Positions 7,328 to 24,705 of a stretch of 32,966 nucleotides of DNA are shown here, piece after piece (positions within the stretch are counted from its first letter, which is position 1; every line of letters begins with the position of its first letter). The stretch is taken from positions 1 to 32,966 of IMG/VR virus record IMGVR_UViG_3300047469_000122. One strand, given 5' to 3'. The position numbers and the translations under genes were made by a program. The DNA is from a virus. The notes below the pieces were generated by a model. That model ran no database searches. It was given only the letters and a program-made list of their open reading frames with translations, and was not told the origin of the DNA.

Positions 7328-7338
7328 CAATTAATTTG
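7328..7338. promoter_or_regulatory. Second, imperfect copy of the early operator
   Basis: CAATTAATTTG matches 10 of 12 positions of the perfect palindrome at 7589-7600 when read with one flanking base. It overlaps the 3' end of the Cro-like gene, about 30 bp upstream of the YmfL-like start. It could be a secondary repressor or Cro site. A chance AT-rich match remains possible. Confidence 0.35.
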
Positions 7339-7552
7339 AGATCACGCCGTCTTTGATACCCAGAAGCACAGCCGCTCGGTGAGCTTCGCCTCGCAAACAT
7401 TTTTTTTGACCATTCAGCACTGCATAAACAGTGCTGGGGTTGAGGTCGTGTCGTTTGGCGAAATCAGCAGCAGACAGTCCCTGCGCGACCAACTTACTTC
7501 GAGCTAGCTGTAGTGCTTGCTCGGTGATAGCAGTGTTCGGCATAGTGCTCAT
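7331..7552 (-). CDS. Cro-like DNA-binding protein
   Basis: A 73-residue helix-turn-helix protein: the segment LSAADFAKRHDLNPSTVYAVLNGQKK (about residues 26-51) reads as helix-turn-helix, followed by a short tail. Similar small proteins (BcepMu gp16-like) are found in phage control regions. It is the first gene of the leftward early operon, divergent from the repressor gene, which is where Cro or Cox normally sits. The start at 7552 is an ATG, with a second ATG at 7543. It may combine a Cro-like function with excision control, since no other Cox-like gene was found; that part is inference. Confidence 0.75.
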   Translation of the reverse strand: MSTMPNTAITEQALQLARSKLVAQGLSAADFAKRHDLNPSTVYAVLNGQKKCLRGEAHRAAVLLGIKDGVISN

Positions 7553-8009: not shown

Positions 8010-8576
8010 ATGTTTGGGATTGCCAAAAGGACTGTGTTGGCTGCTGTACTTGCATCATCTGTTGCGCTCTCGGCTCATGCTTTGGAGCCTCAACACTTCG
8101 ATAATTTGCCTGCGATGGTCGAAGATTTCGGAGATTTTTCCGAGGAGAATGGCACATTCAAAATACTGAAAACTCAGCCCCTGCATGTGCAGTTTTCTCC
8201 TCAAGTGGTGCCGGGTGATCTCGCAGAAAATGTTCGATTCGAAGTTCAGCGAGCCGCTCTGTACGGGGTGTATCGGACCTTCGTGCATACCTCCGCCGAG
8301 TCGGTTCGGGTCACTGCCCTTCCCATTGAACTGGACATCAAGAATGGGTCTTCCAAAAAACTCAAGGGTCCATCGGTTGACGTGACGGTAACTCGAGCCC
8401 AAGCATTAGCTGCTGTGCAGAAGTTTTTTCAGGTTAATAACTTTGCAGAATTGGTGAAACCGGAACAGATGGGAGACATGCAGCTAGACAATTGGACGAA
8501 GAACTTCGAAACCCTTTATTACAAGCAGCCAGGGATCGATCGGCTGCTCGCTGAGTTGAAGGCGAAGCAGGGCTAA
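8010..8576 (+). CDS. Secreted protein of unknown function (lysogeny cargo)
   Basis: A 188-residue protein with a clear Sec signal peptide: basic AKR, a hydrophobic stretch (TVLAAVLASSVALSAHA) and likely cleavage after AHA at about residue 24. The mature part has no cysteine, no lipobox and no catalytic motif I recognise. It is predicted periplasmic or secreted. It lies 32 bp behind the repressor gene, with GAAGGAA as ribosome-binding site, and ends before a strong terminator, so it is probably transcribed with the repressor in the lysogen. That position is typical of lysogenic-conversion genes. Its base composition is lower in GC than the surrounding structural genes. The role is unknown. Confidence 0.75.
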   Translation: MFGIAKRTVLAAVLASSVALSAHALEPQHFDNLPAMVEDFGDFSEENGTFKILKTQPLHVQFSPQVVPGDLAENVRFEVQRAALYGVYRTFVHTSAESVRVTALPIELDIKNGSSKKLKGPSVDVTVTRAQALAAVQKFFQVNNFAELVKPEQMGDMQLDNWTKNFETLYYKQPGIDRLLAELKAKQG

Positions 8577-8603
8577 AAACGTCATTGTTGTAGGGTCGGA
8601 ATC

Positions 8604-8632
8604 AAAAAGCCCAGCGTCCGCTGGGCTTTTTT
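8604..8632 (+). terminator. Strong intrinsic terminator after repressor/cargo unit
   Basis: A symmetric stem, AGCCCAGCG pairing with CGCTGGGCT around a two-base centre, is flanked by A and T runs. It separates the repressor-cargo transcript from the SOS-controlled unit that follows. The flanking A run means it could also act on leftward transcripts. Confidence 0.9.
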
Positions 8633-8677
8633 GTATCCAATTGAATGGCCCCATTGGCGAAATGGTTTTATCTGGTT

Positions 8678-8695
8678 ACTGTATGTGCATACAGT
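8678..8695 (+). promoter_or_regulatory. LexA (SOS) box
   Basis: CTGTATGTGCATACAG at 8679-8694 fits the LexA consensus CTGT-N8-ACAG. Adding the flanking A and T gives 8-bp perfect arms around a TG centre. A possible -35 (TTGGCG, 8654-8659), 17 bp and a weak -10 (TACTGT, 8677-8682) place the box over the promoter. It stands 20 bp upstream of the start codon of the small protein at 8715. Confidence 0.85.
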
Positions 8696-8714
8696 GATGG
8701 AGCCTTGCATAAAA

Positions 8715-8906
8715 ATGGAACCGATTTGCGTCACCCCCGTAACCGCACCCATTGGGCTCGCTACATTCGAGCCTGTTACGACAAGGGAGCGTGAGCTGAT
8801 TGTCGGCTACAGACGTTTATCCAACGATGATCAGGAGCGTTTGCTACTGATGCTGCATGCTTTGGTTTCTGTGACACAGATAAACGAAAGCCATGTGCAC
8901 ATTTGA
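8715..8906 (+). CDS. LexA-controlled small protein, candidate SOS antirepressor
   Basis: A 63-residue protein. Residues 24-50 (RERELIVGYRRLSNDDQERL and on) align without gaps to residues 76-102 of the phage repressor, with ten identical positions by my count (E25, E27, R33, L35, S36, D39, E41, L43, M46, A49). There is no DNA-binding domain. The LexA box lies 20 bp upstream. The repressor has no self-cleaving domain, so an SOS-induced partner that binds its tail would explain prophage induction; phage 186 Tum is a functional precedent but I see no sequence relation. The start is ATG at 8715 with GGAG 12 bases upstream; ATG at 8697 is only 2 bp from the LexA box and less likely. The function is inference. 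Confidence 0.65.
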   Translation: MEPICVTPVTAPIGLATFEPVTTRERELIVGYRRLSNDDQERLLLMLHALVSVTQINESHVHI

Positions 8907-8928: not shown

Positions 8929-10209
8929 CTAAGAAGGGGTGGCGACTGCCTTGCTGGCGGTTAGTCGCTTGTACTCACGTTCGACCGCACGCTGTGCCGA
9001 CTTCTTGCTCTCATACAGGTGTGTCAACTGTTTCGGCTTGCTCTGGTCACCCTCGGTAAGCTTTTGCTGCTTACCGCTCTTCTTGTCGCGGTACCACGCG
9101 ACGATGCCCGTGTAATCCTTGGAGTCGTCAGCCAGCTCCGCTACCTCGTCGCCATCTGGCAACTTTGATTCAAGCTCAAGACTCGTGGTGAATGAGTCCG
9201 ACGTGAAACTGTGTTTGACGTTGCCCCCCAGCCAGATAATGTCCGCAATTTCTTGCTTGATGCCTGTCAGGGAGTAGGTGAGCTCTGGCGTCAGGTCCGG
9301 ACGGCCGCGCGCTAACGAGTAGCTGAGCGTCGCCGTTCCCCGCTGCAGCTTATTCCATTCGGCCCGGGCAGCGACCAGCGCGCTTTTTTGATCGGTGTAG
9401 GAGTGCCGCAGGTCCTTGATGTTTTCCCCACCACCGGATACCGCCTCTTTTTTTTCGGCGCTGTTGACGTCGTAGTAGAACGCCCGCACGCCCGTGTAGC
9501 TATCTCGATCCGCTTGCAGAAACCGGTGCGAATCGCCGTCCCGGCGAGTAAGGGTGATGTGCGGCAGGTTCAGTCCGCTGGCGCTGGTTGCGTTGCCAAT
9601 CGGCATGAACAGCAGCTTGCCTGCTTTCACCGTGGCAATCGCGTCATGTTCTTGTCCGAGACGAGAGAGCAGGTTGGCGTCTGATTCATTGGCCTGGTCA
9701 AGGTGCACGACTTGAATGGCGCTCAGCGCAGCGCTGACCAGAGGACCAAGGCCATAGGCCCCGGCGATGGCTTGCACGACTGATGCAATTGTCTCGTCAT
9801 GCCAGCTGCGTTCCCGTTTGACCTTCAGCCCCGCGCTCAGGTCTACGCTACGCGCGCGGATGTTCAACTGGTCCGGCGCGCCGCTGTGTTCGGTCTCGTC
9901 TACGGTGTACGAGCCTTTGTCCACCAGTCCGGTATCACTCCAGCCAAGCCATAAGCGCAGGGTTGCGCCTTTCGGTGGAATAACCAGACGCCCGTCATGA
10001 TCCGAGAGCGTGACATCGAGCTGGTCTGCCGTGAGTCCGCGGTTGTCGGTCAGTTCGATGCTCATCAGGCGCTGCTCGATCGCCGCTGTGATGTCGCGTC
10101 CGTCGACCTCGAGTCGGCAAATTGGACGGGGGTAGGCGTTCGCTTCTCGCATGGCGGCCTGCGCATCATTCAGATAGCTATCGATCTGACTCAGTGCCTG
10201 GTCAATCAC
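8929..10209 (-). CDS. D: Tail protein gpD (baseplate hub)
   Basis: A 426-residue protein matching P2 gpD (late control D family): an N-terminal hub fold with PICRLEVDGRDITAAIEQRLMSIELTDNRG, a VDETEHSG segment, and a DANLLSRLGQEHDAIATVKAGKLLFMPIG block. The C-terminus carries repeats of the YRDKKSGKQQ and HLYESKKSAQRAVERE type. It forms the hub below the tail tube that holds the spike. It is the last gene of the leftward FI-D late operon; its start overlaps the gpU stop by 4 bp. It faces the SOS unit tail to tail across 22 bp. Confidence 0.92.
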   Translation of the reverse strand: MIDQALSQIDSYLNDAQAAMREANAYPRPICRLEVDGRDITAAIEQRLMSIELTDNRGLTADQLDVTLSDHDGRLVIPPKGATLRLWLGWSDTGLVDKGSYTVDETEHSGAPDQLNIRARSVDLSAGLKVKRERSWHDETIASVVQAIAGAYGLGPLVSAALSAIQVVHLDQANESDANLLSRLGQEHDAIATVKAGKLLFMPIGNATSASGLNLPHITLTRRDGDSHRFLQADRDSYTGVRAFYYDVNSAEKKEAVSGGGENIKDLRHSYTDQKSALVAARAEWNKLQRGTATLSYSLARGRPDLTPELTYSLTGIKQEIADIIWLGGNVKHSFTSDSFTTSLELESKLPDGDEVAELADDSKDYTGIVAWYRDKKSGKQQKLTEGDQSKPKQLTHLYESKKSAQRAVEREYKRLTASKAVATPS

Positions 10210-24000: not shown

Positions 24001-24705
24001 TCAGCTCCCTGGTGGGGGAGCAATCTTTTTCAGTAGGCGTTCGGCGCCTTCCAGATCCTTCTTGCCGCCGCAGCTGTTGTTCAGCTCAATGGCGCGTTTC
24101 AGCAGTTCAATACCAGCCATTACCTGACCGGGTTGGCCCGGGTTATCGGCATTCAGACCGGCCACGGTGGCGCGTCCTGTAGCCAGGTACAGCTTGGCCC
24201 TGGCTTCATCCGGCATGTCTTGTTCTGCGGTCAGCTCCATCGTCCGGTGCAAGGTGGCCAGGTCGAATCCACCACCGGTTTTCTGTGAGCTCAACGCCGC
24301 TTCGGCGACTTCTTCGGCGACCAGGCAGCCGGTGGTCCGTTCGAAGCGATCGGGCATCAATAGGCTGTGCTGCAACACGTAGGCCGCGATGTCGAGCGCG
24401 CCGCTGTAATCGGAAGCATCGATCCGCCAGATCATGATGGTGGTGAGCACTTCGTCCTGAGAACCGTTGCCCGTTGCCAGAACGCCGTCGACGTAAGGCA
24501 CATAAGCCGGTAAAAGCTGCAACTTGAGCGCGGCTTTGCCTTCGTTCGACTGGATCTGTTTCAGGCGCAGACGATCCTGCAGCAGCTGGGCCAGCTGCAT
24601 TTCGTAGGCCGTCCCGCCCGCCATCGAAACGGAGGGCGAAGCGGCTGCAGCTTCCTGCGAGGCAAGCGCCTGCAGCCGGTGACGTTGAGCGAGGGAGAGG
24701 CCCAT
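24001..24705 (-). CDS. M: Terminase small subunit gpM
   Basis: A 234-residue protein of the P2 gpM family: MGLSLAQRHRLQALASQEAA, then YEMQLAQLLQDRLRLKQIQSNEGKAALKLQLLPAYVPYVDGVL and DEVLTTIMIWRIDASDYSGALDIAAYVLQHSL. It recognises cos and, with P, cuts and packages DNA. It follows the capsid gene by 2 bp. Confidence 0.93.
   Translation of the reverse strand: MGLSLAQRHRLQALASQEAAAASPSVSMAGGTAYEMQLAQLLQDRLRLKQIQSNEGKAALKLQLLPAYVPYVDGVLATGNGSQDEVLTTIMIWRIDASDYSGALDIAAYVLQHSLLMPDRFERTTGCLVAEEVAEAALSSQKTGGGFDLATLHRTMELTAEQDMPDEARAKLYLATGRATVAGLNADNPGQPGQVMAGIELLKRAIELNNSCGGKKDLEGAERLLKKIAPPPGS

Follow-up and report, generated by a model that had tools for sequence, protein, structure and literature searches.

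How P2-type prophages other than 186 respond to DNA damage calls for an explanation, because repressors of this type are not RecA-cleavable. Here, we examine a locus that offers a testable answer for one Pseudomonas lineage. The window, the whole stretch of 32,966 nucleotides that was analysed, is an IMG/VR contig of a P2-like Pseudomonas phage in which genes for a gpD-like hub, Ogr/Delta, a CII-like regulator and a P2-type primase were found, and all of its relatives at the DNA level are Pseudomonas phages. Downstream of the repressor gene lies a gene for a protein of 63 residues (Table 1). We will argue that this protein is probably an SOS-induced antirepressor working like SinI.

Table 1. 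Features around the gene for the 63-residue protein, with positions in the window (AF2, AlphaFold2).
Feature	Position	Strand	Basis and remarks
Divergent small HTH protein	7331..7552	-	phrog_925
Phage repressor, 115 aa	7630..7977	+	Pfam HTH_31/HTH_3; phrog_8 regulator; HTH and C-terminal two-helix hook (AF2)
188-aa gene, hydrophobic signal-peptide-like N-terminus	8010..8576	+	between repressor and LexA box
Terminator-like GC-rich hairpin and T run	8600..8632	+	by eye; T run conserved in the relatives' alignment
Predicted promoter	8656..8684	+	-35 TTGGCG, 17-nt spacer, -10 TACTGT into LexA box; by eye from alignment
LexA box CTGTATGTGCATACAG	8679..8694	.	overlaps predicted -10; outer 12 positions do not vary among 15 aligned relatives
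63-aa hook protein, proposed LexA-controlled antirepressor	8715..8906	+	hook = residues 23-59; AF2 helices, dN/dS
gpD-like tail/baseplate hub gene	8929..10209	-	Phage_GPD; phrog_52, E 3.1e-147; marks P2-like context

The locus and its LexA box

The repressor has no self-cleavage domain, as the first-pass annotation of this DNA had stated: Pfam reports only the HTH in its 115 residues, and a peptidase domain was not found. The divergent gene in front of it is the probable start of the early operon and the expected target of repressor control; at the place of this phrog_925 gene, the neighbour in phage Sirocco is annotated as 'cox-like antirepressor'. The DNA between the two divergent genes yielded no simple operator repeat. 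On the other side of the repressor, the 188-residue gene has no Pfam match and looks like a cargo gene, because its presence varies among the relatives (it is present in L004-L008, L010 and L021 and missing from several others). The hairpin with its T run divides this upstream gene from that of the 63-residue protein. A generic scan for promoters and terminators listed neither the hairpin nor the predicted promoter.

The LexA box is perfect and starts 36 nt before the start codon of the small gene. A perfect outer box, beginning 34-36 nt ahead of the start codon, is kept in all 19 close relatives, a set made up of 17 viral contigs (the window included), P. arsenicoxydans and the genome G135, in which some contigs may be near-copies. 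When 15 relatives are aligned, the centre and the flanks of the box vary around its 12 invariant outer positions, and the promoter reads TTGGC(G/T)-17-TACTGT with the -10 element running into the box. Allowing up to one mismatch, we counted 16 sites with the motif in the genome of the lysogen P. arsenicoxydans, compared with 1 for the reversed control; one site lies directly before lexA, and others precede yebG-like and umuD-like ORFs, which were identified by eye. Several relatives do without the 188-residue gene, and there the box, the small gene and gpD remain together, which argues for a separate promoter of the small gene. With a perfect, conserved box over a plausible promoter and the same motif in front of the host lexA, the LexA control claimed earlier holds at the level of sequence, and on this footing the 63-residue gene is predicted to be under direct LexA control. 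A second CTGTN8ACAG site in the window (24177-24192) lies inside a minus-strand ORF and has two further deviations; it was taken as chance.

The small protein and the repressor tail

No domain was found in the 63-residue protein by Pfam, and tblastn against phage records gave no match. The start at 8715 (MEPI...) is conserved among the relatives, and an alternative in-frame ATG at 8697, which would add 6 residues, was rejected for this reason. The N-terminal 20 residues are poorly conserved. Within the lineage, the N-terminal 18 residues have a median dN/dS of 0.52, and the hook has one of 0.19 and is thus under purifying selection; for the repressor, the value is 0.10 for both domains. The shifted frames of the small gene contain stops in 13 of 16 and in 16 of 16 sequences.

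The starting observation was an ungapped alignment of residues 24-50 with residues 76-102 of the repressor, for which ten identities had been counted by eye; the count is exactly 10 out of 27. At the same offset (52), there are 12 identities overall, the best of all offsets, the next best giving 7. The Smith-Waterman score of the two proteins is 51, a value reached by none of 5000 shuffles of the small protein and by 2 of 5000 shuffles of the repressor, and among the other ORFs of the window the repressor scores highest against the small protein (the next one reaches 39). BLASTP of the single pair, a method too weak here, reported nothing.

Comparison of profiles leads to the same result. The small-protein family matches the repressor family with an E value of 1.3e-6 (90.6%), and with a broader and more diverse set of companions, as we call the small hook proteins beside repressors, this becomes 4.7e-9 (96%). 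A search with the small-protein profile through all six frames of a 7.2-Mb genome ranks its own family first and the tail of the adjoining repressor second (E 1.4e-5); in a 6.7-Mb genome, the tail of the neighbouring repressor is again second-ranked, with E 0.07. Such a second rank across a genome is hard to obtain by chance. The shared ancestry that the first-pass annotation had considered likely is hence supported as homology by both the shuffles and the profile comparisons. Its remark that the tail motif is common among XRE regulators of the genus also agrees with our profile searches, in which the hook is widespread in Pseudomonas.

AlphaFold2 was run on single chains of the repressor and of the 63-residue protein with family alignments. 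The repressor model has five HTH helices (3-62) followed by two C-terminal helices (75-85 and 89-107), and the small protein is modelled as two helices (23-34 and 37-59), with pLDDT of about 89-96 for residues 21-50. The helices of the tail and those of the small protein coincide at the sequence offset of 52, and the two are accordingly predicted to share the same two-helix hook. Foldseek finds SinR in the SinR-SinI complex (1b0n_A) as the best PDB match of the whole repressor, over 107 columns with an rmsd of 7.1. This match rests mainly on the HTH and the layout; it supports the general layout of the model and not its exact geometry, because at this rmsd the two domains are placed differently and the hook is placed poorly. 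The isolated small-protein model gave no significant match in the PDB, as expected for a two-helix hairpin, and profile searches of the PDB hit the HTH of SinR but neither its hook nor SinI.

Companions in Pseudomonas and the proposed mechanism

Profile searches over 400 Pseudomonas genomes revealed hooks of two classes, those that form the C-terminal tail of an XRE repressor and those that stand alone as small proteins. Among 274 genomes of the class, two matched besides the P. arsenicoxydans centre genome, both weakly. The HMM search for the same pair elsewhere, suggested in the first-pass annotation, located it in 35 of 60 Pseudomonas repressor neighbourhoods; these are the top repressor matches only, and the fraction is not a genus-wide frequency. 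In all 35 the small hook ORF (E <=0.01) follows the repressor on its own strand; the 60 neighbourhoods contain none in front of it or on the opposite strand. Phage UFJF_PfPro and P. arsenicoxydans E3 likewise carry a pair, and phages D14A and Sirocco have a companion shortened to 38 residues. Of 15 diverse companions, 10 have a match to phrog_23693, a family of unknown function, with a best E value of 5.4e-22; the 63-residue protein matches it weakly (E 0.0041 over residues 23-54), and the LexA-controlled lineage may be a distant member.

Outside the window's lineage, no convincing LexA box was found at the companions: there is one CTGTN8ACAG match (L082/L156), which is about chance level, and no LexA2-type site (GTACN4GTGC). 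Three companions without a LexA box (L012, L017 and L022) share an upstream block, GGCACGC...AGAATGGG...CTCCC, which may be an alternative regulated promoter. In five cases with the companion close behind the repressor (L084, L090, L096, L097 and L120), a conserved stretch around taacgtcgattcagcaatgca is present ahead of the start, as a potential promoter or regulator site with another input. A separate group of hook proteins of about 63 residues ending in ...SVSRF (L052, L054, L055 and L070) is found in several Pseudomonas genomes, and for these a repressor was not detected nearby within the stretch checked. Some genomes hold several differing pairs of repressor and companion, four in G058 (C13, C49, C53 and C111) and at least two in G041 (C20 and C33), which would permit cross-talk between prophages.

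The tail and the companion vary together. Over 59 pairs, distances between small hooks correlate with those between repressor tails, given the DNA-binding domain, with a partial r of 0.54, as against 0.13 for the hook and the DNA-binding domain given the tail; here linkage may contribute, as the companion gene lies closer to the tail, yet the break falls between the domains of one protein. With near-duplicates removed, the values are 0.41 for the tail and 0.10 for the DNA-binding domain. Between D14A and Sirocco, the DNA-binding domains differ by 50%, the tails by 3% and the companions by 22%. In L117 and L119, a DNA-binding domain near the L095/L108 type is combined with a companion of the L081/L088 type, a pattern that suggests recombination inside the repressor gene.

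In the mechanism that we propose, LexA would silence the promoter of the small gene in the lysogen. Upon DNA damage, LexA would be cleaved and the 63-residue protein made. Its two-helix hook would then pair with the matching C-terminal hook of the repressor and displace the repressor-repressor contacts, with the loss of cooperative DNA binding and, as a consequence, expression of the divergent early operon. We infer, in other words, that the small protein binds the repressor, disrupts its oligomers and induces the prophage. The core of the antirepressor reading in the first-pass annotation, a LexA-controlled protein that resembles the repressor tail and is hence a probable antirepressor, is retained in view of the homology, the predicted structure, the conserved position and the conserved promoter, while its closest parallel is SinI/SinR rather than Tum. 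The SOS role put forward there holds for the window's lineage, but it does not define the family, because many hook companions have no LexA box. We thus see a broader module of repressor and companion, with LexA control as an additional input found in one lineage.

Four other explanations were considered. The small protein might bind the repressor hook as a modulator or co-repressor, adjusting the balance of dimers and tetramers or restoring repression after a transient SOS response, without being an inducer. In some cases a mere 67-106 nt separate the companion from the repressor in front of it, and the two may share a transcript; this arrangement, seen in several prophages, fits a constitutive modulator, and such close spacing together with the absence of the LexA box in most relatives is odd for a dedicated induction switch and counts against one. 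In the window's lineage, however, the gene has its own LexA-overlapped promoter behind a terminator-like sequence and is expected to be silent in the lysogen and expressed during SOS, and SinI, the nearest analogue in logic, is an antagonist. We therefore regard this alternative as unlikely. An action chiefly in trans, against the hook-tailed repressors of co-resident prophages with which the protein would synchronise or compete, has a somewhat smaller chance still: the gene stays beside one repressor and co-varies with its tail, which points to a cognate partner and would make trans action additional, even if some genomes do hold several pairs, as described above, and some Gifsy antirepressors do act on non-cognate repressors (PMC3121763).

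It is quite improbable that the small protein merely shares its ancestry with the tail, as a relic of duplication, and has another SOS-related target or none. The wide occurrence of the hook motif in XRE regulators of the genus would agree with such a relic, but the strict placement behind hook-tailed repressors (35 downstream on the same strand, 0 elsewhere), the co-variation with the tail and the concentration of purifying selection on the hook would not. A chance resemblance or a spurious ORF, in line with the empty pairwise BLASTP, has a negligible probability in view of the shuffles, the profile comparison, the genome-wide rank, the dN/dS values and the stops in the other frames.

The SOS-induced antirepressor thus remains the preferred reading for the window's lineage. 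For the family as a whole, we see an even chance that phrog_23693 and its relatives are widespread SinI-like companions in Pseudomonas, with tail and companion forming an exchangeable module that recombination joins to different DNA-binding domains and that receives different signals through different promoters, and that the window's lineage has plugged this module into SOS.

Comparison with known systems

The Gifsy repressors have no peptidase domain and are inactivated by LexA-controlled antirepressors (PMC3121763). The Gifsy/Fels-1 proteins GfoA, GftA and FsoA resemble the present case in that a small LexA-controlled protein is combined with a short, non-cleavable phage repressor. Their genes lie outside the immunity region, whereas the gene studied here is near the repressor. 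Moreover, the passages of PMC3121763 that were consulted do not describe them as repressor-like, and a conformational change is the mode of action proposed for GftA; the 63-residue protein, in contrast, is related to the repressor tail. Tum of the P2-like phage 186 and AntC of N15, as cited there, are also LexA-controlled antirepressors. Tum has 146 residues with a DinI-like half, and the lack of similarity to it noted in the first-pass annotation stands: the present protein is much shorter, no Tum- or DinI-type Pfam model matched, and PHROGs gave phrog_23693 only. As far as these proteins are described in those passages, GfoA/GftA, Tum and AntC share the LexA logic and not the hook-copying design.

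The smORF antirepressors of Vibrio phages are small phage proteins that inactivate a repressor without proteolysis (PMC10432266), as is proposed for the 63-residue protein. They are SOS-independent and switched on by phage transcription factors instead of LexA, they are reported to have no homologues or domains, and their repressors are self-cleaving (PMC10432266). The CI repressor of TP901-1 has a helical dimerisation domain modelled as a two-helix hook, a likeness to the predicted tail of the repressor here, and its antirepressor MOR is a second regulator of that switch (PMC4941734). In the literature searched, which covered few subscription papers, we found no description of a LexA-controlled hook-copying antirepressor or of a SinI-like trick in a phage; this does not prove novelty.

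The closest parallel is the biofilm switch of Bacillus subtilis. The C-terminal hook of SinR makes dimers and tetramers; SinI consists of nothing but such a hook, takes the place of the SinR hook and thereby puts an end to DNA binding (PMC3163267). The heterodimer is formed by the paired hooks, and the contact residues are conserved between both proteins (PMC3163267). The SinI models in Pfam match neither the window protein nor 14 diverse relatives, and PDB searches gave no SinI chain; by its sequence, the 63-residue protein is not a member of the SinI family. If the proposal is correct, it provides a function for phrog_23693, and it points to imitation of the repressor's oligomerisation hook, as known from SinI, as a common means of control in Pseudomonas prophages. 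In both systems, a small, separately regulated two-helix hook is related to the C-terminal oligomerisation hook of the adjoining HTH repressor. The gene order differs from that of SinI/SinR, the repressor here being followed by the hook protein with its own promoter, and the input is Spo0A there and LexA here, with a prophage repressor as the target.
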